Source: an uncultured Pseudomonadota bacterium (lineage in GTDB: Bacteria > Myxococcota_A > UBA796 > GCA-2862545). Taken from it: a DNA stretch of 64,000 bases. The notes under the pieces are model-generated. The model did no database searches, was not told the DNA's origin, and saw nothing but the letters and a program-made list of their open reading frames with translations. The position numbers and the translations under genes were made by a program. This document shows positions 4,458 to 42,199 of the stretch, one piece after another. Location: the NCBI GenBank assembly GCA_913061235.1, contig CAJXTB010000004.1:248001-312000 (forward strand), in the 5' to 3' direction. Within the stretch, counting starts at the first letter, position 1, and each line of letters opens with the position of its first letter.

Positions 4458-5300
4458 CTAGAACATGATGCCTGCGGTGGCACCGTAGTAGAGCATGGTG
4501 TGGAGGCCGCCTTCGAACCGCAGGACGAAGCGGTCGCCGAAGTTGAAGCGCAAGCCCGCGTTGATGTCCACCATGGGCAGGACTGGCGGTATGCCGTCCT
4601 TGTTTCCGTCTGCTTCTTCGCCGTTGTCGAATCTGACGTGTGCCGAGTCGCCGGTATCGCCCGGGCCCCAGCGCTCGAGATCGCCGAACAACACACCCAG
4701 TCCGAGTCCACCGCCAACGAGGAAGGACAGACCGAAGGCACCGTTCGTCTGCGACGTGCGGACAAAGTGGGCTTCGTACGCGTAGTTGGCGCCAAAGACC
4801 GCCATGCCGAGGTTGTTGCTCGGAAGCAGGAAGTCACCATCAAGGTTGTCGGCCGGTTCTTCGCGGTCGTCCCAGTAGCCTTCCTTCATGCGGGACTTGA
4901 CGTACTCCATATAGAAGATGCCGTTGGCGCTCTCGCCCTTGATGACGAACTCAATTCCTAGGGCGTAGGCCTCAATTTGAGGCCGGTCGCGTGAGTCTCC
5001 CCAGCTCGGGTCGTCTTCGTTGTAGTACCAGATGTCTAGGATGCTGCTCGGAACACCCATCATGCGGCCACGGAAGCTGATTTCCATGTCGTAGTCTCGG
5101 CTCTTGCCCTCTGGGTCGGCAATGAGGTCGATGTCTAGATTGTCGGTCACTGGTGCGGCTTCGACAGGGACTTCCTGCACGAAGTGCAGTGCTGACGGTG
5201 CCCACGACGGGTTGAGGTCCGGCGCGCTGGCCTGCGCGGAGGGAGCAGCCAGCGTGGATAGGCCGGCGAGAACGGTTGTGAAGACGAGCGAACGGTACAT
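4458..5300 (-). CDS. Outer-membrane beta-barrel protein of unknown function
   Basis: This is a 280-residue precursor with a Sec signal (cut after PSAQA at about residue 24). The mature part alternates charged and aromatic residues in beta-like strands (DMEISFRGRMMG, IEFVIKGESANGIFYMEYV, AHFVRTSQTNGAFGLSFLVGGGLGLGVLFGDL). It ends FVLRFEGGLHTMLYYGATAGIMF, a barrel-type last strand with terminal Phe, the usual signal for BAM-dependent insertion. The acidic patch near DNGEEADGNKDG may be an extracellular, possibly Ca-binding, loop. I know no specific family. The gene is divergent from holA. Confidence 0.7.
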   Translation of the reverse strand: MYRSLVFTTVLAGLSTLAAPSAQASAPDLNPSWAPSALHFVQEVPVEAAPVTDNLDIDLIADPEGKSRDYDMEISFRGRMMGVPSSILDIWYYNEDDPSWGDSRDRPQIEAYALGIEFVIKGESANGIFYMEYVKSRMKEGYWDDREEPADNLDGDFLLPSNNLGMAVFGANYAYEAHFVRTSQTNGAFGLSFLVGGGLGLGVLFGDLERWGPGDTGDSAHVRFDNGEEADGNKDGIPPVLPMVDINAGLRFNFGDRFVLRFEGGLHTMLYYGATAGIMF

Positions 5301-5382
5301 GCGTGACCCCTGTGACCGCCATAGCTACCGTCAGTGCAGCCCCTCTGTCAATCGAACCTGTAGGGCAACTGTCGGAGTGTGC

Positions 5383-6357
5383 ATGGCCAGTGATTCGCCG
5401 CCCATCGTGCTGGTCCTCGGAGATGCAGGACCTTTGGTCGACAAGACAGCTGCCGCCGTGGTTGCTGACGGGGTGTCTCGATGCGGGATTCCTGCGTTCA
5501 ACCACGCCCGCTATCGCGCCGGTGAACAGGGGCTGGATGCGATTGCAGCGGCCAAGACCCCTCCCATGATGTCGGACCTGCGCTTGGTGGAGCTGCGCGA
5601 CCTGCATCTCGCCAAGCCCGCTGAGCTAGAGGCGTTGGTGGAGTACGCCCAGTCGCCGTCTGAGCTGACGCTGTTGTTGTTGGTTGGCTCAGGCTTGCCG
5701 TCGAGTGTGAAGGGGCAGCCGAACTTTGGCATCCGTCTGAAAAACGCGGTGAAGAAGACGGGCCAGGTCATCGAGCACAAGGCGGCCAACGTCAATGTCC
5801 CTCGATTCGCTATCGAGACGGCTCAGGCGGTTGGCAAGAAACTCTCGATGCCAGACGCCAAGGTTCTTGTGGAGTGGCTGGGAACGGATCTTGGACGCGT
5901 CCGTTCTGAGGTGGAGAAGCTCGCGCTGTTTGTGGGGAACCGCGGGACGATTAGCGCCAATGACATTCGCGAAGGCTCTGCACTGCTGGGAGAGGCCGAG
6001 ATCTGGAGTCTCACGGGAGCCATCGCATCCAAGAACGTAGACGAGGCCTTGGCTACACTTCATCGACTCACCGCTGCTGGCGACGATGCTCGCCGGTTGC
6101 TGGGGATGATTGCGTGGCAGATGCGAGAGATCGTAAAGCTCACTGAGCTCGTTGCGTCTGGCATGCCGGATGCCGAGATTCGTAAGCAGGGTCGCGTACG
6201 CTTTGACGTGCTGCGTGCTGTGCGTTCTGCAGGGGACAAGGCACCGACGGCCGCAGCGACCCTGTCGCGTCTGGCACGCGCGAATCGGTCGATGAACGAG
6301 CACAAGGCCGGGGACGTGCGCATTCTAGAAGAGCTCGTGTTGGAGCTGTGCCGCTGA
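5383..6357 (+). CDS. holA: DNA polymerase III delta subunit
   Basis: The 324-residue protein has the HolA layout: an N-terminal AAA+-like domain (IVLVLGDAGPLVDKTAAAV; the P-loop is degenerate, as usual for delta), a central lid with LLLLVGSGLPSSVKG, and the C-terminal collar with WLGTDLGRVRSEVEKLAL (residues about 165-182) and IASKNVDEALATLHRL. Delta opens the beta clamp in the clamp loader. The start at 5383 has GGAG 6 bases upstream; the in-frame extension toward 5104 runs antisense over the outer-membrane gene and is not used. A bidirectional terminator follows. Confidence 0.9.
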   Translation: MASDSPPIVLVLGDAGPLVDKTAAAVVADGVSRCGIPAFNHARYRAGEQGLDAIAAAKTPPMMSDLRLVELRDLHLAKPAELEALVEYAQSPSELTLLLLVGSGLPSSVKGQPNFGIRLKNAVKKTGQVIEHKAANVNVPRFAIETAQAVGKKLSMPDAKVLVEWLGTDLGRVRSEVEKLALFVGNRGTISANDIREGSALLGEAEIWSLTGAIASKNVDEALATLHRLTAAGDDARRLLGMIAWQMREIVKLTELVASGMPDAEIRKQGRVRFDVLRAVRSAGDKAPTAAATLSRLARANRSMNEHKAGDVRILEELVLELCR

Positions 6358-6429
6358 GTACAGGGGAGCTGGATTCTTAGCGGGTCTGGCTTTCAGCCGT
6401 CAGCCCGTGACGGGGGGGCTTCCACAAAC

Positions 6430-6465
6430 AAAAAGGGCGCCAGTCCGAAGACTGGCGCCCTTTTT
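6430..6465. terminator. Bidirectional terminator between holA and rpsT
   Basis: A 16-bp perfect stem begins AAAAAGGGCGCC and ends GGCGCCCTTTTT around a CGAA tetraloop, with a T-run in both reading directions. It serves the convergent holA (plus) and rpsT (minus) genes. Confidence 0.92.
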
Positions 6466-6481
6466 AGGTGACCGAGTCAGC

Positions 6482-6745
6482 CTAGCCGATGGCCTTGACT
6501 GCTGCGTTCATGCGGCTGATCTTGCGAGCAGCTTGGTTGCGATGGATCACACCCTTGCTGACGGTACGATGCAGAACGCTGGTCAATGTGTTCAATGCTT
6601 CTTTCGCTAGGGGAGCGTCTCCGCCCTCAATAGCAGCACGAACAATCTTGACTTGGTTGCGCATAGTCGTGCGGATGGCACGGTTACGAATGCGACGGTT
6701 TTCGCTTTGCTTGTAACGCTTGATGGCGTCTTTGTGGTTGGCCAC
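6482..6745 (-). CDS. rpsT: 30S ribosomal protein bS20
   Basis: The 87-residue basic protein begins MANHKDAIKRYKQSENRRIRN and contains VIHRNQAARKISRMN, both standard for bS20, which binds 16S rRNA early in 30S assembly. Length is normal. The start codon is GTG with GGAG 6 bases upstream; non-ATG starts are also common in rpsT of enteric bacteria. It is divergent from lepA across about 157 bases that should hold both promoters. Confidence 0.96.
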   Translation of the reverse strand: MANHKDAIKRYKQSENRRIRNRAIRTTMRNQVKIVRAAIEGGDAPLAKEALNTLTSVLHRTVSKGVIHRNQAARKISRMNAAVKAIG

Positions 6746-6902
6746 GATTCACTCCGGGATGATGGTCCACCCAGTTCTCGGATGGAAACGACCTGCGCAG
6801 CTAACCGGGCAGGAGCGAGTGTCAAGCACGCAGGGAGGGTGCTTCGGTTGCGTACCCCGTGCCATTGGAGGCCAACCCGTATAGGGGCGGCGTCTTGGAG
6901 GC

Positions 6903-8714
6903 ATGGTGAACGAACAGTCCCGGATGCGCAACTTTGCCATCATCGCTCACATCGACCATGGCAAGTCGACTCTCGCTGACCGTATTCTACAGCTCACAGG
7001 TGCCGTTGCGGACCGTGACATGAAGGCTCAGCTGCTCGACTCTATGGATATTGAGCGTGAGCGTGGAATCACCATCAAAGCTCAGACCGCGACCATGGTG
7101 TACAGGGCGAAAGATGGGTTGGACTACACGCTCAACCTCATCGATACCCCTGGTCATGTCGACTTCACTTACGAGGTGAGTCGCAGCTTGTCGGCGTGTG
7201 AAGGCGCGTTGCTCGTTGTCGATGCCGCCCAGGGGGTCGAAGCACAGACTCTCGCCAATGTGTACTTGGCGTTGGATGCTGACTTGGAGATCATCCCCGT
7301 CATCAATAAGATCGACCTGCCAGGTGCAGACGCCGACCGCGTCGCTCAACAGGTCGAAGACGTGGTTGGGATCGACGCCACCGAGGCTATTTATTGCTCG
7401 GCAAAGTCCGGTATTGGCATCGAAGACGTGCTCGAGGCCATCGTCAAGCGCGTCCCCCCACCCAAGGGTGACCCGGAAGCGAAGTTGCAGGCGCTCATCG
7501 TGGACTCATGGTTCGACACCTACGTGGGCGTCATCACCTTGGTTCGTGTGGTTGCTGGCACGCTGAAGAAGGGCGAGAAGTTTAAGATGCTCGCCACACA
7601 GGCCGTTCATGAGGTTCAAAAGCTGGGTGTCTTCACTCCGGCTGCCTTGGCGACGAAAGAGCTGACACCAGGAATGGTCGGCTTTGTCGTGGGCTCCATC
7701 AAGGAACTCAAAGACGCTCGTGTTGGTGACACCATCGTGCATGCGCTGCACGGTGCCACCGAAGCGCTCCCTGGCTTCGAAGAAATCAAGCCCATGGTGT
7801 TCTCCGGAATCTTCCCGGTAGACAGCCCGGACTACTCGGACCTGCGCGACGCCCTCGAAAAGCTTCAGCTGAACGACGCTGCCATCTCCGTGGAAGTGGA
7901 GTCGTCAGATGCTCTCGGCATGGGCTTTCGGGTTGGCTTCTTGGGCTTGCTGCACATGGAGATTGTTCAGGAGCGGCTGGAACGTGAGTACAATCTCAGC
8001 CTCATCACCACAGCGCCTTCAGTCGTCTACCACGCGTACACGAACAAGGGCGAAGAGGTCATTGTTCAGAGTCCATCGCAGCTTCCTGAAGGTGCGTTCC
8101 TGGACCATATCGAAGAGCCGATCAGTAAGGTGACGATTCACGTGCCCGAAGAGTACGTCGGCAATGTTCTGAAGCTGTGCCAAGAACGCCGCGGAACCCA
8201 GACCGGCTTCGACTACAGCAGCACCGGTCGCGTGGTCATCACGTATGACATTCCGTACGCAGAGGTGGTGTTTGACTTCTTCGACAAGCTCAAGAGCATC
8301 ACGCGTGGCTATGCGTCGATGGACTACGAGATCATCGATTACCGGCAAGACAATCTGGTCAAGATCGACATTCTGCTGAACGGCGAGCTGGTCGATGCAT
8401 TGTCGATGATCTGCCACCGTGAACAAGCCCACTACAAGGGTGCAGCGCTCACCAAGAAGCTCAAAGAGTTCATCCCTCGTCAGATGTACGAAGTGGCCAT
8501 TCAGGCGGCTATCGGGAGCAAGGTGGTGGCTCGAAGCACGGTCAAGGCGTACCGGAAGGACGTGACGGCCAAGTGCTACGGCGGCGACATCTCGCGTAAG
8601 CGCAAGCTGCTTGAGAAGCAGAAGAAGGGCAAGAAGCGTATGAAGGCTGTCGGCTCGGTGGAAATCCCGCAAGAGGCCTTCTTGGCAGTGCTCAAGATTG
8701 GGCAAGACGGGTGA
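6903..8714 (+). CDS. lepA: Elongation factor 4 (LepA), back-translocating GTPase
   Basis: The 603-residue protein has all G-motifs: AHIDHGKST (G1, residues about 15-23), RGIT (G3-preceding switch I), DTPGHVDF (G3) and NKID (G4). The LepA-specific C-terminal domain includes LCQERRGTQ and [18 protein letters not shown]. LepA acts on stalled or mis-translocated ribosomes and in 30S biogenesis. Length is normal. The ATG at 6903 has GGAG immediately upstream. Its stop overlaps the next gene's GTG as GTGA. No lepB follows, unlike in many bacteria. Confidence 0.97.
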
Positions 8715-9097
8715 CCGTGCGGCGTGTGTTGGCGGTGCTTGGCGGTGTTGTCGCAGTGTTTGCGATGGCGGCGCTGGGTGCAGCTGTCGCACTATTCGCA
8801 CCGGTGTTCCTAGATGACCGGGCGCTCGACCGAACCGTTGCTATCGTGGCCTTAGACTGGCGAGACTTTGGTCGTGAAAAGGCCCATGAGCGCTTGTTGC
8901 TTGAGCTGGACAAGAACGGCATTGGACCGTGGGTACGGGACACTGACTGTGGTCTGCGAAACGAGGCAGAGCTACGCATTGTGGCCTGCAGCTGGGATAC
9001 CGTGGTGCACATTCCACTCATCGACGCGAGAGTTCCTCTGCGATTCGAGTCGTCGGCTGCGATTGACAACACCGGGGAGTTCACGTCATGGCAGTAG
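8711..9097 (+). CDS. Membrane-anchored protein of unknown function
   Basis: The 128-residue protein has one N-terminal membrane segment (about residues 7-33, [20 protein letters not shown]) and a roughly 90-residue periplasmic part with two cysteines (DTDCGLRN and VACSWD), which could form a disulfide. No family is recognised. It starts at GTG, overlapping the lepA stop by four bases, and overlaps the GH57 gene by ten bases, so all three are probably one transcript. Confidence 0.65.
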
Positions 9098-10758
9098 GAA
9101 GCTTTTGTTTGGTCCTCCATGGGCACTTGCCATGGGTCGCACATCATGGACGCTGGCCGCATGGCGAAGACTGGCTCTTTGAGGCGGCCGCTGAGACGTG
9201 GCTTCCGCTTCTCAGGGTGTTGGACACGGCAGAACGCGAGGGGCTGCGCATCCAGTGGACCCTCGGCCTTATGCCGATTCTACTTGAGCAGTTGGCGACG
9301 CCAGCGTTTCGAAATGGATTCGTTCGCTACTTAGAGGACGCACGCGACCAAGCCGAAAAAGACGAGAATGACTTCAACGCGTGGGGACATGGCGAGCTGT
9401 CGTGGCTCGCCCAGCGTGAGGTGGGACTTCATGCGGACATGTTGGTCCAGTTTGAGGCCATCGAGAGCGACATTGCCGCCGCGTTGGTCCGCCATGCTGA
9501 GGCAGGTCGCCTAGAGCTGTTGTCGTCGAATGCGACGCATGGGTTTCATCCTCTGATCCTGCATGATGCCTGTGCGCGTGCGCAGATTCGTGCTGGACTT
9601 GCAGCCTCCACCCGGCACCTGGGACACACGCCATCCGGCATCTGGTTGCCTGAGTGTGCGTACCGTCCAGATGGACCGTGGCAGCCTGTTGCAGTTCACG
9701 GTGACATGCGCGACCGCGAGGGTGTGGCGACACTGTTTGGCGACGAAGGCGTTCGCTTTTTCTGTGTGGAAAACCACCTGATCACAGGGTCGACGCCCGT
9801 CACAGCGCTCGATGGTGACCGGTCGATTGGCGGACAGCCAGACCGGTCGGATGGTCGTGCGTGGGGCTCATGGTTGGAGCCGCACCGTGTTGTAGAGCGC
9901 GGCGTCGTGACTCCGGTGACGGTGCTTGGACGCGCTCAAGACATCGCAGAGCAAGTGTGGAACGCAGAAGTGGGGTTCCCAGGAGACGGGCGCTACCGCG
10001 AGTTTCACAAGCGGCACGGCATGCGTGGACTGCGCTACTGGCGAGTGACCGGTCGGGACGTTGGCCTTGGGGAAAAGGCTGTGTACAGCCCGGATGATGC
10101 TCGAGAGGCGATTCGTACACACGCGGACCACTTCGCGTGGATGATTCGCGACCGCTTGGCCAAGCATCAGTGGGAAACGGGCCGCGAGGGCATCGTGTGT
10201 GCTCCCTTTGATGCCGAGCTGTTTGGCCATTGGTGGGCGGAAGGCCCCGAGTTCTTGCTGGAAGTGGCTCGTCGCCTACAAGATGGCGACGTCGTCTTGC
10301 GGACCGTGTCCGAAGCGCTGGCACACACCCCCGCTGACAAAGCGGTCACCATTCCGCGTGGCACCTGGGGGGAAGCCGGCGACGAGCGGGTGTGGAACCA
10401 AGACCAGACCAAGCAGTACTGGGAAATGGCGTACCGGGCGGAAGACCGTTTCCTTGACCTGTGGCACCGAGCACCGTGGCGAACGGACGACACGGTGAGT
10501 GAGCTGCTCACTGAGGCAGGGCGTCAGCTGTTGCTTCTACAGGCGTCCGACTGGCCGTTTGTGATCACAACAAACGGTGCTCCTGACTACGGATGGCGCA
10601 GAGTGTACGGTCACTATGCTCGCTTTGACGACTTGTGTGCCGGCGTTGAAGACGTCTTGGCCGGAGCGGAGGTTCCGGTGCAGGCCAGTGCGTCGCTTGC
10701 CTATTGCCAGGCGGTGGACGGGGTCTTTCCCGAGCTGCAGCTCTCGTGGTGGACGTAG
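9088..10758 (+). CDS. GH57 1,4-alpha-glucan branching enzyme
   Basis: The 556-residue cytoplasmic protein carries the GH57 conserved regions. HGHLPWV lies at residues 11-17, and GIWLPECAY at about 184-192 contains the glutamate nucleophile. FDAELFGHWW near 374-383 contains the acid/base aspartate. The region after about 420 matches the C-terminal helical domain of branching enzymes (WEMAYRAEDRFLDL, LLLLQASDWPF). It transfers alpha-1,4 glucan segments to alpha-1,6 branch points during glycogen synthesis. Length fits the 520-560 range of GH57 branching enzymes. GGGGAG lies 10 bases before the ATG. No other glycogen gene is in the window. Confidence 0.9.
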   Translation: MAVGSFCLVLHGHLPWVAHHGRWPHGEDWLFEAAAETWLPLLRVLDTAEREGLRIQWTLGLMPILLEQLATPAFRNGFVRYLEDARDQAEKDENDFNAWGHGELSWLAQREVGLHADMLVQFEAIESDIAAALVRHAEAGRLELLSSNATHGFHPLILHDACARAQIRAGLAASTRHLGHTPSGIWLPECAYRPDGPWQPVAVHGDMRDREGVATLFGDEGVRFFCVENHLITGSTPVTALDGDRSIGGQPDRSDGRAWGSWLEPHRVVERGVVTPVTVLGRAQDIAEQVWNAEVGFPGDGRYREFHKRHGMRGLRYWRVTGRDVGLGEKAVYSPDDAREAIRTHADHFAWMIRDRLAKHQWETGREGIVCAPFDAELFGHWWAEGPEFLLEVARRLQDGDVVLRTVSEALAHTPADKAVTIPRGTWGEAGDERVWNQDQTKQYWEMAYRAEDRFLDLWHRAPWRTDDTVSELLTEAGRQLLLLQASDWPFVITTNGAPDYGWRRVYGHYARFDDLCAGVEDVLAGAEVPVQASASLAYCQAVDGVFPELQLSWWT

Positions 10759-10774
10759 CGAAGCGTCCGGTGGC

Positions 10775-11245
10775 TCACACCACCACCATCAATACCGACC
10801 GGCCTTGGCCGAGTGATTGAAGTCCGGCTCGGACGGCGGACGAAAATCCGTTGTCCTCGACGCAGAGCATGCGAAGCGCTGGAGCCGTGCGCACCCAGGT
10901 GAGCAGAGCCTGACCAGCGACGTCACCCAGACCGCACCCAACGAGACCCACTTGGGTCAGCGACGGCGGAAACGCAGCTACGAGTCGGGCTACACCCGCG
11001 TCCGACACGTGTGAGTTGTAGCTGATGCTGAACGACTCTAGGCGAGCGCCGACCCGGGCGTCCTGCTCGATGGCCTGGGCCAAGAGGTCTGCTTGGGACG
11101 GGCCGATACCAGAGCTTCGTAGGTGCAGCGTGTAGCTTCCAGACGGGTGACCACTCGACGCCAACCGAGCTGCGGCGTCTAGACAACCGGGGGTTCCGAT
11201 GTCGTTCAATACGCGAAGGACTGACGATGGCAGCTTCAACGACAC
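10775..11245 (-). CDS. Small leucine-rich-repeat protein (ribonuclease-inhibitor type)
   Basis: The 156-residue protein has several LRR units with ladder spacing: YTLHLRSSGIG, LESFSISYNSHVSDAGVARL, LTQVGLVGCGLGDVAGQALL and LRMLCVEDNGFSSAV. The SDAGVARL and GDVAGQALL segments match the RI-type LRR pattern. There is no signal peptide, so a cytoplasmic protein-protein binding role is likely. It begins at GTG inside the last ten bases of mtgA, which argues for coupled translation; why a transglycosylase would be coupled to an LRR protein is unclear. Confidence 0.7.
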   Translation of the reverse strand: MSLKLPSSVLRVLNDIGTPGCLDAAARLASSGHPSGSYTLHLRSSGIGPSQADLLAQAIEQDARVGARLESFSISYNSHVSDAGVARLVAAFPPSLTQVGLVGCGLGDVAGQALLTWVRTAPALRMLCVEDNGFSSAVRAGLQSLGQGRSVLMVVV

Positions 11246-11955
11246 AGGTCACCATTGCGTTCTTTCCACCGTCGGCCCACGTCTTCAAAGCCAGTCTCAC
11301 CCGGGAAGACGGCTGGGTAGCGCAGCAGGCGGGCTGCTTTGGCGGCTGCGCGTGGCCCATCGGGAGTGCGAGTCTTGGGGGAGGGCAGAATCGACACCAG
11401 TCGCGCCGCATCACTGCGCGACAGAGAGGATGCGGGGCGCCCATACCAGTACCGAGATCCGGACTCTGCGCCGTACACGCCAGGACCGAACTCGGCGACG
11501 CCAAGGTACAGCTCTAGAATGCGCTCTTTGGGTAGGAGCAGCTCCATCCAGCCTACGTAGACGGTCTCTAGTCCCTTGCGAATCCAGCTACGCTTCTGCC
11601 ACAGGAACACATTCTTTGCGGTCTGCTGCGTAATGGTGCTGCCGCCTGCAACCACCTCTCCGGCCTCACGGTTCTTGCTCATGGCCGTGCAGACGCCGCC
11701 CATGTCGATGCCCCAGTGGTAGAAGAACGCGTCGTCCTCTGCCGTCAGAGCCATTCGGGGGACCTCACCGAGCGTGTCCATGGCGGGACTACGATGACGT
11801 ACCCACAGCGGTCCACCGGCTGCACGCGAGCGACTCCATGCGTCGCCCACCATGGTCAAGGTGAACGGCGGGTCGATGAAGCGGACCACCAGCACTTGGA
11901 CAGGTGGAATGAAGAACGCGATGACGGCGGCGAGTAGCAGGCGCTTGGCCCACAA
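11236..11955 (-). CDS. mtgA: Monofunctional peptidoglycan glycosyltransferase (GT51)
   Basis: The 239-residue protein has one N-terminal membrane anchor (residues about 5-25) and a GT51 domain. Motif 1 is TAEDDAFFYHWGID with the catalytic Glu, motif 2 is GGSTITQQTAKN, motif 3 is RKGLETVYV, and motif 4 is ILELYLGVAEFGPGVYG. It polymerises lipid II glycan strands in the periplasm and lacks a transpeptidase domain. The GTG start used here is uncertain: the frame stays open upstream and codes a very basic stretch (RKRRSKRRRPATWR) typical of a cytoplasmic leader, but without an ATG, GTG or well-placed ribosome site. The gene lies 74 bases after trxB. Confidence 0.88.
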   Translation of the reverse strand: MWAKRLLLAAVIAFFIPPVQVLVVRFIDPPFTLTMVGDAWSRSRAAGGPLWVRHRSPAMDTLGEVPRMALTAEDDAFFYHWGIDMGGVCTAMSKNREAGEVVAGGSTITQQTAKNVFLWQKRSWIRKGLETVYVGWMELLLPKERILELYLGVAEFGPGVYGAESGSRYWYGRPASSLSRSDAARLVSILPSPKTRTPDGPRAAAKAARLLRYPAVFPGETGFEDVGRRWKERNGDLCR

Positions 11956-12029: not shown

Positions 12030-12953
12030 CTATTCGCCGGCTTCGAGCCAGCGCTCACACTCAAGGGCGGCCATACAGCCGGACCCCGCTGCGGTGACGG
12101 CTTGGCGGTACACGGTGTCTTGCACATCGCCGCTGGCAAACACGCCAGGGATGTTGGTGACGGTGCTGCCGGGCGTGGTGACGAGGTAGCCGTCGGCATC
12201 CATGTCCAGCTGGCCCTTGAATGGGCCTGTGTTGGGGACGTGGCCGATAGCGAGGAACAACGCGGAGACGTCGACAACCTGCTCGGTGCCATCGTTGCGG
12301 TTCTTCACGCGGATGCCGCTGACGTTGGTATCACCCAGCACTTCGCTGACTTCCGAGTCCCACATGAACTCGATCTTCGGGTTGTTCCGGGCGCGGTCTT
12401 GCATGATCTTGGAGGCGCGAAGCACGTCTCGCCGGACGATGATGATGACCTTGCTGGCAAACTTCGTGAGGAAGGTAGCCTCTTCCATGGCCGAGTCACC
12501 ACCACCGATGACGGCGACGGGCACGTTCTGGAAGAAGAAGCCGTCGCAGGTAGCGCACGCACTGACGCCGTGGCCCATCAACCGCTTCTCGCTCTCGATG
12601 CCGAGCCAGCGCGCGGTAGCGCCGGTGGAGATGACCAAGGCGTCTGCCTCGACCGTCTCTTCAGACGACGTCGTGAGGATGAACGGCCGCTTGGACAGGT
12701 CCGCTTTGACGATTTCGTCGTACGAGTACTGGGTGCCGAAGCGTGCGCACTGAGCCTTCATACGCTCCATCAACTCTGGGCCCATGATGCCTTCAGGAAA
12801 GCCAGGGAAGTTGTCGACGTCCGTAGTGATGGTCAGCTGACCGCCGGGCTGGATGCCCTCGAAGACGGTAGGAACGAGGTTTGCGCGGGACAAGTAGAGA
12901 GCGGCAGTGAGGCCGGCAGGGCCAGAGCCTAAAACAACAACGCGGTGGGACAT
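12030..12953 (-). CDS. trxB: Thioredoxin-disulfide reductase
   Basis: The 307-residue protein begins [20 protein letters not shown] (FAD-binding GxGPAG). CATCDG lies at about residues 134-139 (redox cysteine pair), then [10 protein letters not shown] (NADPH-binding) and VFASGDVQD (second FAD contact). It reduces thioredoxin with NADPH in the cytoplasm. Length is normal. The ATG at 12953 is preceded by GGAG at good distance. The thioredoxin-like lipoprotein at 2386 is periplasmic and not its direct substrate. Confidence 0.96.
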
Positions 12954-13035
12954 GGGGGTCTCCAAGTTCAGAAGGCGAGGGGGTAAGTATCTGCAGTGAC
13001 GGTGGCAAGGACCAGCCCGTCAACAGGCCGTTTGA

Positions 13036-15195
13036 CTACGGGGTATCGGACGGCTCGGTTACGGCATTCTCGGCTAGCCAAGCCCTTACCGGTGCTTCGT
13101 TATCGATCGCTGCGACCATTTCGCCACACAACCACAACGGGATGCGGCCTTCTCCAGCGGCCAGTATGCCTCGCTCGAGCGCTCGGTAGTCGGACGGTTC
13201 AGGAGAGGGGTGTACATAGCCAACCTTGACCCGTAGCAGCTGTTCAGCGGCCTGTTCGGCATCCATGAAAGCCAAGTCGGGTGCCAAGGCGATGCACTGA
13301 GCGGTCTGCATGGCAAGTCGTCGGTCTCCGAATGCAGTAGCGTCAGCGAGTGTGAGGGGCTGCTCTCCCGGGGGCTCAATCACTGCGTCTGGGCGGATGA
13401 TCCCGTCTTCGTCTGCCAAGCGCCACAGCGGAATGATGCGCGTCTGCTCAAGGTCGGTAGAGCGTCCGTAGCGGCGTAAGGCACGTCGGATAGCGGTGTT
13501 TCCGGGTGAGCGGTACCACTGCATCTCAAGCAGCCCAATGGCCGCAGCATGCTCACCGGCATCTTTGAGGCGCTTCGCAATGTCCACAACCAAGCCTGGA
13601 CTTGGGGCAGCAGCGAGAGCTCGGTCGATGAGTTCAGAGGGAGTTGGGCCTTGCGACGGGTACTGGTCGACCACGGCGAGGTAGCGAAGCCATACCTCTG
13701 CATTGTTGGCGTTGTCGGTGATGACCTCTTCAAGCAGGGCAAAGGCCTCGGGGGCCGAGCCGGTCTGTGCGAGCGCGTCGGCCAGGTCTAGCCGTGCGCT
13801 GCGAGACGTTGGGTTGCGGTCGACGCGCTCTTGGGCGTCGATGAGCGCGTAGGGGAGTCGCCAGACGATGCGGTTGAGTAGGCGGTCGCGCAGGGGGTTC
13901 AGCCGGTCTCCGTCGACTTCGTCTGTCTCCCACACCGCTTCGAGGGATTGGGTGCCCCGTACGATGCCGTACCAGTGTGTCTGACGCTCACCGACGTCAA
14001 AGCGAATGTGTGTGGCGTCGTATCCAGCGACAGCCGTCACCTCGGTGTCTCCTGCTGTGACCTCTGACCCGATGCGTTCAAGACGCTCGGTGAAGAGGGC
14101 AGCGAGCTCCTCTGCGGTGAGTGCGCTCTCGTGGTCGGTCTTGACGACGGCGAATCCACGCTGCCCACTGGCCGGGGATGGGGAGTTGAACCCGGCTAGT
14201 CCGCTGCTCAGGATGGATGAACGCCAGCCGAGTGGCGCCTGCCAAGTCGCTTCTTCGTAGCGGTCGGTGACCTCGACGGGCACAGCTCGGGGCCTACGTG
14301 AGTGAACGACATCTGTTGGGGCGAGCCGCGCGATGTAAGGGCCGAACAGCGAGAAGCCGAGCATTAGGGCTACGCTGGCTACAGCTGTTGACCCTGCGAT
14401 GACGCGGTTGCGAACACGGTGCTTTGGCCCCGGTGGCGCAAGAAGGAGGGCGAGAACAGCGCCCACAAGCAAGCCACCAAAGTGGGCCCAGTTGTCGGTG
14501 TTCGCTGAGCGTAGGCCACTGGCAAACATCAGGACCAGGTACGGCAACATGGCTACGCCGAAGAACCGTCGTGAACCCTTGGGCAGCATCTCAGGACGGA
14601 TGAAGCCAAAGACGACCACTGCGGCGATGAGTCCAAAGACGCCGCCCGAGGCACCTAGGCTGCTGGTCTCGGGCTTGAACCACATGGACAGCAGGCTGCC
14701 GCCCATGACCGAGGCGATGTACAGCGTCAGCAGGTTCAGACGCCCCAAGATGCGCTCAAGGGCGGACCCTGTGTACGCGAGCCACAGCATGTTCAGTAGG
14801 ATGTGGCCGGTGTCGAGGTGCAAGAAGCCCATCGTCAGCAGCCGCCAGCCTTCGCCGTCTTCCAGAACCGGAGACGCGAAGTTCACGCCATCTCGAGTGA
14901 TCCAGCTCTCGACCGAATTGAACGACGAGAACCACCAAATGCGGATCTGGATGCCAACAAGCAGAGCGGTCAGGATGGGGGGCGTGGCGTTTAAGGCCGA
15001 GGCGCGTCGGTCTGATGCACCATCAAACTTGAGGTCCGCGTAGCTCTCTAGGCTGTCTGCCCGGACGAAGGAATCCCCAGTGACGGCGTCAATACGCACA
15101 TTTGCATCGGGTGGGACGCGACCGGTGCGGACCCAGTCTTCCCACTCGTCCCAGGAAAGGGATGCATGAATGTCACCGATACGGACGTCAACCAC
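13036..15195 (-). CDS. Rhomboid intramembrane protease with N-terminal regulatory and C-terminal TPR regions
   Basis: The product is about 719 residues. Residues 1-40 (RIGDIHASLSWDEWEDWVRTGR) look like a GYF_2-type or similar small domain. The rhomboid core (about 75-255) has five to six membrane segments, with NMLWLAYTG, then GASGGVFG holding the catalytic Ser near 178, and WAHFGGLLVG holding the catalytic His near 235. A seventh segment near 270 (VIAGSTAVASVALMLGFSLFG) is followed by about 180 residues of unknown fold and then TPR-like helices (from about 450). Rhomboids cleave membrane-protein helices. The GTG at 15195 is preceded by AGAGGAG. It is divergent from the Lon N-domain gene. Confidence 0.85.
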   Translation of the reverse strand: MVDVRIGDIHASLSWDEWEDWVRTGRVPPDANVRIDAVTGDSFVRADSLESYADLKFDGASDRRASALNATPPILTALLVGIQIRIWWFSSFNSVESWITRDGVNFASPVLEDGEGWRLLTMGFLHLDTGHILLNMLWLAYTGSALERILGRLNLLTLYIASVMGGSLLSMWFKPETSSLGASGGVFGLIAAVVVFGFIRPEMLPKGSRRFFGVAMLPYLVLMFASGLRSANTDNWAHFGGLLVGAVLALLLAPPGPKHRVRNRVIAGSTAVASVALMLGFSLFGPYIARLAPTDVVHSRRPRAVPVEVTDRYEEATWQAPLGWRSSILSSGLAGFNSPSPASGQRGFAVVKTDHESALTAEELAALFTERLERIGSEVTAGDTEVTAVAGYDATHIRFDVGERQTHWYGIVRGTQSLEAVWETDEVDGDRLNPLRDRLLNRIVWRLPYALIDAQERVDRNPTSRSARLDLADALAQTGSAPEAFALLEEVITDNANNAEVWLRYLAVVDQYPSQGPTPSELIDRALAAAPSPGLVVDIAKRLKDAGEHAAAIGLLEMQWYRSPGNTAIRRALRRYGRSTDLEQTRIIPLWRLADEDGIIRPDAVIEPPGEQPLTLADATAFGDRRLAMQTAQCIALAPDLAFMDAEQAAEQLLRVKVGYVHPSPEPSDYRALERGILAAGEGRIPLWLCGEMVAAIDNEAPVRAWLAENAVTEPSDTP

Positions 15196-15265
15196 GCAGA
15201 CTCCTCTCGGCACGGATAGCCCACAGTAGACCGAACGGCCCTTGTCTCACAGGACACACTGCTAC

Positions 15266-15892
15266 GTGGCGACGACCTATGACCAACTCCCCATCTTTCC
15301 GCTGCCCCGACTCGTTTTGATGCCGGGCCGATTGCTGCCACTACATGTGTTTGAACCTCGGTATCGCTCATTGGTTCAGCACTGTATGGACGGAGATGGC
15401 TTGATGGGCGTTGCGACCCTGCGTCCTGCGAGTGGACCACCGGCAGAGACAGAACCCCTGATCTACCCCGAGATTGGCGTGGGTCGGCTCGTCCAGGTCA
15501 AGCCCTTTCCGGACGGTCGGAGCAACATTGTTCTCGAGTACGTGCAGACCGCGCACTTGGTGCGAGAGATGACCACGGACAAGCCTTTTCGGCTGGTCAG
15601 TGCGGAAGGGCATTCGGTTGTGCGAGATGGCATCGAACGCCCGATTAACGAGCTTCGCAGCCTTCTCATCCAGCTCGGAATGCTCTCGCCCGTCATTGGT
15701 GATGAGCTCGCTGTGTTGGTGGAGCTGTCGGACCATGAGCTGATGGACGACTTGGCCGTACGCTTGCTTCGCGACGATGTGGAGCGTCGCCGGTACACCG
15801 TGATGGAGCGGCTTAGTGACCGAGGCAACACGCTTGTGGAGCAGCTTGCCATCTCGCTTGCGAGCATGTCATCCGTCGTAGGCGACGCGTAG
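15266..15892 (+). CDS. Lon N-terminal (LON substrate-binding) domain protein
   Basis: The protein is about 208 residues. It opens with QLPIFPLPRLVLMPGRLLPLHVFEPRYRSL, whose pieces (IFPLP, LPLHVFEPRY) are diagnostic of the stand-alone LON domain. GVGRLVQVK, also typical, follows. There is no AAA+ or protease part, so it is the YcaC-like solo form whose function is poorly known; it may bind unfolded substrates. The start is uncertain: GTG at 15266 has AGGA 11 bases upstream, and a TTG at 15242 is also in frame. It overlaps the convergent queG 3' end by 24 bases. Confidence 0.85.
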   Translation: MATTYDQLPIFPLPRLVLMPGRLLPLHVFEPRYRSLVQHCMDGDGLMGVATLRPASGPPAETEPLIYPEIGVGRLVQVKPFPDGRSNIVLEYVQTAHLVREMTTDKPFRLVSAEGHSVVRDGIERPINELRSLLIQLGMLSPVIGDELAVLVELSDHELMDDLAVRLLRDDVERRRYTVMERLSDRGNTLVEQLAISLASMSSVVGDA

Positions 15893-16963
15893 TTCCTGTT
15901 TGACCACGTCGCTGCTGTCGACGTGCTGCTGAACGCGGCTGTCTCCGAGTTGTTGTAGACACCACACGGCTGCGGCGCGCACGACGTCGCTCGGATGAGC
16001 CAGCTGCTCGCGAACCGTGTCCACAACGGCGTCGTCTCCGAGATTCCCGAGCACAATGAGCGCGTTGCGCTTGAGGCCCGTGCCACCCGGACGACGGAGC
16101 GGGGTGCCCGTGAAGCGCTCTTTGAGGGCGTCATCGGAACTCTTGAGTAGAGTCACGCAGTCCAACCAGGCATTGCGCGGGAGCAGGTCGTCGCTGTCCG
16201 GCGGGGGCGGTCGGGTGTTGTGCGGGCAGACTTCCTGACAGACGTCGCATCCAAAGAGCCAGCGTCCGAAACCTGCGCGCAGAGATCTTGGTGCTAGGCC
16301 GCGTGATTCGATGGTCCAGTACGAGATGCAGCGTCGGGCGTCGAGAGTGAAAGGGCCCGTGAAGGCGTCCGTGGGGCAGGCGACCAAGCAGCGTGTGCAG
16401 GTCCCGCAGTGGTTCTTGACCAGCGGCGGGTCGGGTGTAGCGTCGGCAGCCAAGAACACGGTACCCAAGAACATCCAAGAGGTCTTGGCGGGCACGATGG
16501 TCACGCAGTTCTTGCCGGTGAATCCTGCTCCCGCCAGCCGCGCCCACTTGCGCTCCAAGATGGGTGCGGTGTCCACACCTCCCCAACAATCAATCCCTTC
16601 AAGACGCAGCCGCTTCATGAGGCGGACGAGGCGCTTGCCAAACAGGTTGTGGTAGTCGCGGCCCCAGGCGTAGCGCGCGACTTGGCCTGTGGGCCCACCT
16701 GGATCTGCCGGACGTTGGTGCGCGTGACGGAGCGAGAAGACAGCAACGGACCGGGTGTCGGCCAGGCGCTGGGCTGGGTTGCGTCTGACGTCGGCGCCGC
16801 GCTCCAGATAGCCCATGTCTGCGTGCATTCCGTTTGCCACCCAAGCGTCGTAGGCATCGGCGTCTGGTGCCAGTTCGTGGTCTGCGAAGCGCGCCACATG
16901 AACAGTGGACAAGCCGACCTCAGCGGCGAGGCGTGTCAGTACGGGTCGGACGTCTTCAGCCAC
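15869..16963 (-). CDS. queG: Epoxyqueuosine reductase
   Basis: The 364-residue protein has the QueG layout: a DUF1730 cobalamin-binding N-terminal half (GYLERGADVRRNPAQRLADTRSV, YAWGRDYHN), two 4Fe-4S motifs (CGTCTRCLVACP near residue 186 and CDVCQEVCP near 240), and C-terminal HEAT-like helices (LIVLGNLGDDAVVDTV). It converts epoxyqueuosine to queuosine in tRNA, the last step of the pathway. Length is normal. The 3' end overlaps the convergent Lon N-domain gene. A QueF-like protein without its catalytic cysteine is encoded 24 kb away. Confidence 0.95.
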   Translation of the reverse strand: MAEDVRPVLTRLAAEVGLSTVHVARFADHELAPDADAYDAWVANGMHADMGYLERGADVRRNPAQRLADTRSVAVFSLRHAHQRPADPGGPTGQVARYAWGRDYHNLFGKRLVRLMKRLRLEGIDCWGGVDTAPILERKWARLAGAGFTGKNCVTIVPAKTSWMFLGTVFLAADATPDPPLVKNHCGTCTRCLVACPTDAFTGPFTLDARRCISYWTIESRGLAPRSLRAGFGRWLFGCDVCQEVCPHNTRPPPPDSDDLLPRNAWLDCVTLLKSSDDALKERFTGTPLRRPGGTGLKRNALIVLGNLGDDAVVDTVREQLAHPSDVVRAAAVWCLQQLGDSRVQQHVDSSDVVKQELRVAYDG

Positions 16964-39648: not shown

Positions 39649-40230
39649 TTAGATGCGAGTTGAGTTGTGAACCTGGAAGCCGAATCCGTCGACATTTCCG
39701 GCCCAGTCCGCAAAGTTCTCTTCGCCGCCACGAATCTTCCAGTCGGAGTCGATGGTCAAGCAGCTGCTGATGCCGCCGCGTGGACGCAGACGCATCATCA
39801 GGCGGAGACGGCGGGGCTCGTATGCAGCCATGAGGTCGTCAAAGACCACGTTGGCGAGGCGCTCGTAGCTGGCCATGGCGTCGCGGAAGGCGTCTTTGTA
39901 GACCTTGAGGGACTTCAGCTCAATGGTCCACTCGTTCGGGTAGAACGTCAGCAAGACTTCGCCGTAGTCTGGCTGGTTCGCGACTCCCAAGAAAGTGAAC
40001 TCGGGAATGAGAATCTTCTGCTCGTACGCGTCCCCGGTGGGGTTGGGAATGCGGTCGAGCAGGTGCTTTTTGCTCCAGTGGGAGTTCGGAAGCATCTTCA
40101 TGGCTTCCTTGTGCTGCCCTTCGGAATCCAACCGTTCACGCTTGAGCGTCTTGAGCAGCTGCTTGCGCTCGTCGTAGGACAGGTCGCGCATGCCATGGAG
40201 TGCTTGCTCGTACTGTGCGTCTGTGGCCAT
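39649..40230 (-). CDS. QueF-like protein lacking the catalytic cysteine
   Basis: This 193-residue protein is clearly related to QueF (preQ0 reductase). It has EFTFL...QPDYGEVLLTFYP, ELKSLKVYKDAFRD (QueF: ESKSLKLYLxSFR), and LRPRGGISSCL (QueF: xPRGGI). In true QueF the segment after EFT is LCPxTGQPD, whose Cys forms the thioimide with preQ0. Here it reads LGVANQPD, with no Cys and one residue fewer. The usual FHE reads YER. The single Cys of the protein is near the C-terminus (SSC). It therefore cannot use QueF chemistry as known and may have another substrate or a regulatory role. A queG gene in the window shows that the queuosine pathway exists here. Confidence 0.78.
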   Translation of the reverse strand: MATDAQYEQALHGMRDLSYDERKQLLKTLKRERLDSEGQHKEAMKMLPNSHWSKKHLLDRIPNPTGDAYEQKILIPEFTFLGVANQPDYGEVLLTFYPNEWTIELKSLKVYKDAFRDAMASYERLANVVFDDLMAAYEPRRLRLMMRLRPRGGISSCLTIDSDWKIRGGEENFADWAGNVDGFGFQVHNSTRI

Positions 40231-40499: not shown

Positions 40500-42180
<1,681 letters not shown>

Positions 42181-42199
42181 TGGCCGGGTGCGTAATGCA

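Follow-up and report, generated by a model that had tools for sequence, protein, structure and literature searches.

A QueF homolog without the catalytic cysteine

The window (the whole stretch of 64,000 nucleotides analyzed here) belongs to G000, a genome of 7.18 Mb and 99% completeness. Its minus strand carries a gene for a homolog of QueF, the preQ0 nitrile reductase, that lacks the catalytic Cys. We refer to the family of such cysteine-less QueF-like proteins as QFL. The features of the gene are:

39649..40230, minus strand: QFL coding sequence, ATG start, 193 aa; QueF-like protein with a predicted T-fold, without the catalytic Cys
40081..40230, minus strand: N-terminal helical extension of bacterial QFL, about 50 residues, with helices 4-16 and 19-46 in the structure model; missing from most viral QFL
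39967..39990, minus strand: residues 81-88, LGVANQPD in place of LCPxTGQPD; catalytic Cys gone, Asp88 (Asp62 of Bacillus subtilis QueF) kept
39904..39921, minus strand: residues 104-109, ELKSLK, the QueF motif; motif Glu104 (Glu78) kept
39859..39867, minus strand: residues 122-124, YER; Tyr122 replaces the catalytic His, Glu123 (Glu97, base-binding) is kept, Arg124 is QFL-specific
39739..39759, minus strand: residues 158-164, LTIDSDW, a QFL-specific signature after the RGGI strand; invariant in 12/12 bacterial rows and in 41/41 rows of a second alignment

The ORF contains no internal stop codon, and its GC content by codon position is 0.59/0.37/0.80. A Pfam scan of the protein returned QueF (E 5e-17, 62.3 bits, cut-off 27.3) and one weak, unrelated match; PF02219, the family of the methylenetetrahydrofolate reductase MetF, was absent. 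Against the NCBIfam preQ1-synthase model TIGR03139 (cut-off 86.9 bits), the window protein scored 83.7 bits, just under the cut-off, and the viral QFL proteins of loci L389 and L086 scored 93.7 and 96.9 bits, both above it. With QFL on both sides of the cut-off, this model does not separate QFL from QueF.

According to PMC5372742, the Cys of QueF is needed for thioimide formation from the nitrile, further hallmarks are Asp62, Glu97 and the QueF motif with Glu78 (B. subtilis residue roles), and sequences without catalytic Cys55 are excluded as non-QueF. QFL was aligned with canonical QueF (row labels in B. velezensis numbering, B. subtilis +1), the distant QueF_phi38 being excluded. The QFL loop LG-V-AN-QPD is one residue shorter than LCPxTGQPD and leaves the Cys column empty. 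The preliminary description of this locus had reported the loss of the catalytic Cys, and the alignment bears this out, with no residue at that column in any of the 12 bacterial rows. Its observation that the ELKSLK, QPD and RGG blocks are retained also holds. Its reading of FHE as YER was off by one in register: the His is lost (H to Y), as stated, but the Glu is kept (F to S, H to Y, E to E, followed by Arg).

The same YER pattern occurs in all 51 QFL rows of the alignment (12 bacterial and 39 viral), as do Asp88, Glu123 and Glu104. The gap at the Cys column and the Tyr in place of His are shared by 12/12 bacterial sequences and 39/39 sequences of the first viral set; this rules out a sequencing error, which the preliminary description had named as a way in which its reading could fail. 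Another conserved Cys at the active site, the other such way, was not found: 3 of the 12 bacterial sequences have Ser or Val where the others have the Cys after RGGISS, and this Cys was rejected on that ground as a substitute for the lost one.

The absence of canonical queF from all 63 genomes of the order agrees with the idea that the gene is a decayed QueF, a sequencing error or a product of chance. This idea is refuted by conservation and can be considered extremely improbable, because both the changes and a set of strongly conserved residues found only in QFL recur across the 12 bacterial genomes and the viral sequences. Judged by its sequence, the protein is a genuine and conserved cysteine-less QueF homolog that falls outside the published definition of a QueF enzyme.

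Occurrence of QFL in bacteria

The phylum sample comprised 377 genomes, 58 of which gave a match. A high-identity group (E below 1e-79) consists of 12 of these, G000 and 11 others, all falling in two families (f1 and f2) of one order; the remaining matches have 42% identity or less. Within the order set of 63 genomes, only the same 12 contain a protein over the Pfam QueF cut-off. The 12 sequences form one clade with 100/100 support, and the residues strongly conserved among them and specific to QFL are SYER, LTIDSDW, RGG..E..DW and the N-terminal helical extension.

The gene neighborhoods of bacterial QFL differ between genera, and methionine genes are not adjacent. All four f2 genomes (L040, L042, L044, L045) have an M19 peptidase gene upstream of QFL, 24 bp away in L040 and L044. 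In G314 (L041), QFL begins within the stop codon of queG (ATGA), and is itself followed by a gene like that at 13036-15213 of the window and then by a trxB-like gene; G314 is the only genome with such an overlap. At 12030-16963 of the window, the same genes form a cluster from which QFL is missing; QFL itself lies at a distance of 23 kb. In G307, QFL and a tgt are 3 kb apart. As neighborhoods are not conserved, with the queG overlap confined to G314 and a nearby tgt to G307, a queuosine context for bacterial QFL was rejected.

A search for riboswitches in the window and at 11 bacterial QFL loci revealed no preQ1 riboswitch, and only TPP and cobalamin riboswitches were seen. The TPP riboswitch (RF00059, 64.6 bits) is at 42092-42185 of the window, minus strand, immediately upstream of an ORF (40500-42101, minus strand) that looks by eye like thiC and whose start it overlaps. 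Cobalamin riboswitches lie 3 kb downstream of QFL at L049 (13763-13888, G317) and L050 (13058-13217, G307).

Queuosine genes in genomes with QFL

Among the 63 genomes of the order, tgt is present in 62, queA in 60 and queG in 59, and queC exceeds its cut-off in two. Among the QFL genomes, tgt is present in 12/12, and queG and queA are each matched in 11/12. Bacterial-type copies with DEC and SVGE blocks are among the tgt sequences from 14 genomes, 12 with QFL and two without. In the majority of genomes of the order there are two bacterial-type tgt genes, one of them adjoining queA (in G000, C2:313628-314689 and C12:65645-66718), and G307 and G317 have an additional third, divergent copy.

The queG gene that the preliminary description had noted is present in G000 (window 15869-16963, minus strand; match at C4:263950-264933). 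Its premise of a protein in the service of queuosine stands on weak ground: G000 has tgt, queA and queG but lacks queC, queD and canonical queF, viral relatives adjoin methionine and SAM genes and not queuosine genes, and in the order QFL and metF are mutually exclusive (below). A search for a normal queF elsewhere in G000, which it had proposed, found none. QueC over the cut-off and QueD are both absent from G000, which makes preQ0 synthesis by the known route impossible, so that any queuosine would come from salvage, whether QFL is present or not. A QueE-like radical SAM protein is encoded at C1:160871-161503 (E 7e-35); a preQ0 pathway complete but for QueC was nonetheless rejected for G000, because QueD is missing too.

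A role in queuosine salvage, with QFL binding or converting a 7-deazaguanine (preQ0, preQ1 or a derivative) without a covalent step, would agree with the retained base-binding Glu, Asp and QueF motif, the presence of tgt, queG and queA in nearly all QFL genomes, and the queG overlap in G314 and the tgt near QFL in G307. A QPTR transporter is present in G000, and in 8/12 QFL genomes vs 11/51 others. However, tgt, queA and queG are equally common in genomes of the order without QFL, and G000 lacks QueC and QueD. Together with the viral neighborhoods and the distribution of MetF described below, this makes salvage an unlikely role.

Another candidate is the phage enzyme DpdL, reportedly named by Cui et al. 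2023 and said to be a putative 7-carboxy-7-deazaguanine decarboxylase. The presence of a QueE-like protein and the absence of QueC in G000 are what a decarboxylase route might need, but G000 has no QueD, viral QFL loci show little trace of QueE or DpdA (below), and DpdL has no tie to the methyl cycle. We consider this identity very unlikely.

Viral relatives, phylogeny and structure model

Searching with a profile of the bacterial family retrieved 47 viral loci, with identities of up to 64%. Addition of the viral sequences to the profile extended this to 203 relatives, the best 80 of which were used. The protein was readable in 79 of these best 80 (unreadable in one); all 79 contain SYER, and 77 have the shortened loop without Cys. 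In the other two (L419, L420), the shortened loop does contain a Cys, but one residue away from the canonical site.

In the phylogenetic tree, QFL (39 viral and 12 bacterial sequences) is separated from 13 canonical QueF sequences with 100/100 support, with long branches flagged among the canonical rows. At the level of sequence, QFL thus forms a monophyletic family.

The AlphaFold2 model of the window protein is a T-fold (mean pLDDT 81.5, pTM 0.66; pLDDT below 50 in the last ten or so residues and in the loop 167-170). The best structural match is B. subtilis QueF (Foldseek E 6.5e-10; VIA Z 16.0, rmsd 3.3, 131 aligned residues). Further T-fold matches among those listed include GTP cyclohydrolase I and dihydroneopterin aldolase, which indicate the shared T-fold only and not a function.

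Gene neighborhoods of viral QFL

Among the first 47 viral loci, MetK is encoded in 7, AhcY in 5, SpeD in 4 and MetE in 1, and MetF in none. FolE, QueD, QueE or QueC are encoded within 10 kb in 0/47 and DpdA in 1/47, and QueE and QueD occur in only 1/47 of the whole viral records. These counts argue against both queuosine salvage and DpdL, and a general role of QFL in phage DNA modification was rejected on the 10-kb counts. In the best 80 of the 203 loci, MetK is the commonest neighbor (16/80).

The most complete arrangement is at L389, a 273-kb contig, where MetK (5022-6005), QFL (6007-6450), MetH (6444-9959) and AhcY (9961-11289) are contiguous on one strand, with a 7-nt overlap of QFL and MetH. 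The MetH and AhcY proteins pass their NCBIfam equivalog cut-offs; MetK is under its own, though all three Pfam domains are present. This operon is the SAM/methionine cycle minus the enzyme that makes 5-methyl-THF, with QFL standing in that place. At L180, the order is a phosphoribosyltransferase, a PNP_UDP family nucleosidase, MetK, DUF2452, QFL and MetE, and QFL and MetE overlap by 7 nt.

As a control, 80 viral loci of canonical QueF were collected with the same retrieval and flank. Methyl-cycle genes occur within 6 kb in 21 of the best 80 of 203 QFL loci vs 0/80 canonical QueF loci (p 2e-7; near-copies in both sets mean that p-values overstate independence), and are absent within this distance at the other 59 QFL loci. 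Conversely, FolE, QueD, QueE, QueC or DpdA is nearby in 1/80 of the same QFL loci vs 78/80 control loci. The control proteins retain Cys, His and Glu in 80/80 cases, so that loss of the Cys accompanies a change of gene context. The sole QFL locus with DpdA, L162, also encodes a canonical bimodular QueF, as expected if the two proteins have different jobs.

A gene for DUF2452 (PF10504) adjoins viral QFL or lies within about 1.3 kb of it (L120, L122, L125, L130, L104 and others), and a member of this cluster is present in 12/47 viral loci; DUF2452 is a possible partner of QFL. In L111, L120, L122 and L125, an S-adenosylmethionine decarboxylase (SpeD-like) gene is upstream of QFL.

QFL and MetF exclude each other in one bacterial order

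Because the viral methyl-cycle operons are short of MetF, genomes containing QFL were expected to lack it. This prediction, that QFL genomes would be without PF02219, was fixed before the search, when the loci L086, L128 and L130 were known; L389 was found later. PF02219 was detected in 0/12 QFL genomes and in 45/51 others, both genes in 0/63 and neither in 6/63. Fisher's exact test gave p 7e-9 over 63 genomes, 0.001 within f1 and 0.005 within f2, values that are too small because the genomes are related. Counted by genera of f1 and f2, 8 have QFL only, 11 metF only, 2 neither and 0 both. In f1 and f2 genomes of at least 85% completeness, MetF is missing in 7/7 with QFL vs 1/12 others (p 2e-4).

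Swaps between sisters were observed: G290 has metF and G087, G241 and G160 have QFL; G043 has metF and G000 has QFL. On a queA tree of 58 of the 63 genomes (G117, G122, G146, G304 and G317 left out, of which G146 and G317 are QFL-positive), QFL requires 5 changes and metF 8. There are 3 independent QFL swap pairs on supported branches (5 on all branches); metF changes in the opposite direction in 1-2 of the 3, and never in the same direction. This pattern is consistent with a swap of QFL and MetF, for which 3 pairs cannot reach significance and the phylogenetic test has no power.

PMC7857596 indicates that PF02219 does not detect the flavin-free mycobacterial Mfr, and that missing MetF can also be made up by Mfr or by folate-independent methionine synthases; lack of MetF thus has other possible remedies. 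In 2.10 of the 7.18 Mb (29%) of G000, MetK was found, and no MetH, MetE or BHMT was seen.

QFL might instead perform another folate, pterin or methyl-cycle job, such as dihydrofolate reduction or a service to MetK or MetH, with the loss of MetF being indirect. GTP cyclohydrolase I and dihydroneopterin aldolase are among the T-fold relatives of the model, MetK is the commonest neighbor in the best 80 of 203 viral loci, and MTHFR (PF02219) is the one folate/methionine family profiled for complementarity across the order. On the other hand, the L389 and L180 operons miss exactly the conversion of CH2-THF to CH3-THF, and the exclusion of MetF is what that missing step predicted, which leaves such a job improbable, if somewhat less so than queuosine salvage. 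Salvage leaves the exclusion with MetF unexplained.

Proposed function and mechanism

We propose that QFL is a flavin-free 5,10-methylene-THF reductase built on the QueF T-fold, replacing the non-homologous MetF, and put the probability of this reading at roughly three in four. Most likely, QFL has the function of MetF but stands outside the MetF family, and would supply 5-methyl-THF for methionine synthesis in its stead. The evidence comprises the loss of Cys and His with retention of Glu, Asp and the QueF motif, the monophyly of the family, the T-fold model, the viral methyl-cycle operons and the exclusion of MetF; from it we infer the reaction, the cofactor, the roles of the residues and NADPH binding at the QueF motif. 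The preliminary description had offered three guesses. A cysteine-independent reductase fits a gene that is mutually exclusive with metF in its order and has methionine and SAM genes as viral neighbors. A base-binding regulator does not fit these findings, nor does an enzyme with another 7-deazapurine substrate.

In methylene-tetrahydropterin reductases, an acidic residue makes the 5-iminium cation, which then accepts the hydride, and Mfr and Mer take it directly from NADH or F420H2 with no need for flavin (PMC11094777). In QFL, the T-fold pocket would grip the pterin ring via Glu123, as QueF grips the deazaguanine ring. An acid, for which Asp88 is the candidate, would protonate the substrate, opening 5,10-methylene-THF to the 5-iminium cation, and NADPH bound at the retained QueF motif would donate a hydride to the exocyclic CH2=N+ carbon. 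Since the iminium would already be reducible, with no nitrile-to-thioimide step, the Cys and His would be dispensable.

Our literature search, limited to open-licence papers, found none on a cysteine-less QueF family, a T-fold MTHFR, or QueF together with methylenetetrahydrofolate reductase. The QueF T-fold family has probably given rise to one more way of reducing methylene-THF, through a small MTHFR that uses no flavin and is unrelated to the known enzymes. In two or more families of one order it would have taken the place of MetF; many viruses have it as well, and one encodes it in an operon of MetK, QFL, MetH and AhcY. If this is correct, QFL catalyzes a central step of one-carbon metabolism without being homologous to the usual enzyme, and explains how bacteria without MetF could make methionine. 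A nitrile reductase fold would have been re-used for a folate iminium by dropping the Cys, and viruses would provide the folate side of the SAM cycle. An annotation error would also be corrected, as family models name some QFL proteins QueF: at least two of the scanned viral members, those of L389 and L086, would be misnamed preQ(1) synthase by automatic annotation in databases.

Comparison with known systems

Among the closest known systems is unimodular QueF, the preQ0 nitrile reductase (B. subtilis, PDB 4f8b/4fgc), which shares with QFL the T-fold (131 aligned residues, 27% identity), Asp62, Glu97, Glu78 and the ELKSLK motif. Unlike QFL, it has Cys55 and His96; QFL has no Cys, a Tyr in place of His96, the signatures SYER and LTIDSDW, and, in viruses, no queuosine gene context. 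QueF-L, the archaeosine synthase, is likewise a QueF relative with one T-fold and an altered reaction (structural match Z 14.1), but it has retained the catalytic Cys and works through a thioimide (PMC5485725).

With MetF/MTHFR (PF02219, FAD, beta-alpha barrel), QFL would share the reaction, and the two are distributed in a complementary manner in the order; sequence and fold are unrelated, QFL being a Pfam QueF protein with a modeled T-fold. Mfr, the flavin-free MTHFR of mycobacteria, resembles the proposed QFL in needing no flavin, the hydride coming straight from NAD(P)H (PMC11094777). Mfr is a beta-alpha barrel, whereas QFL is a T-fold according to its model.
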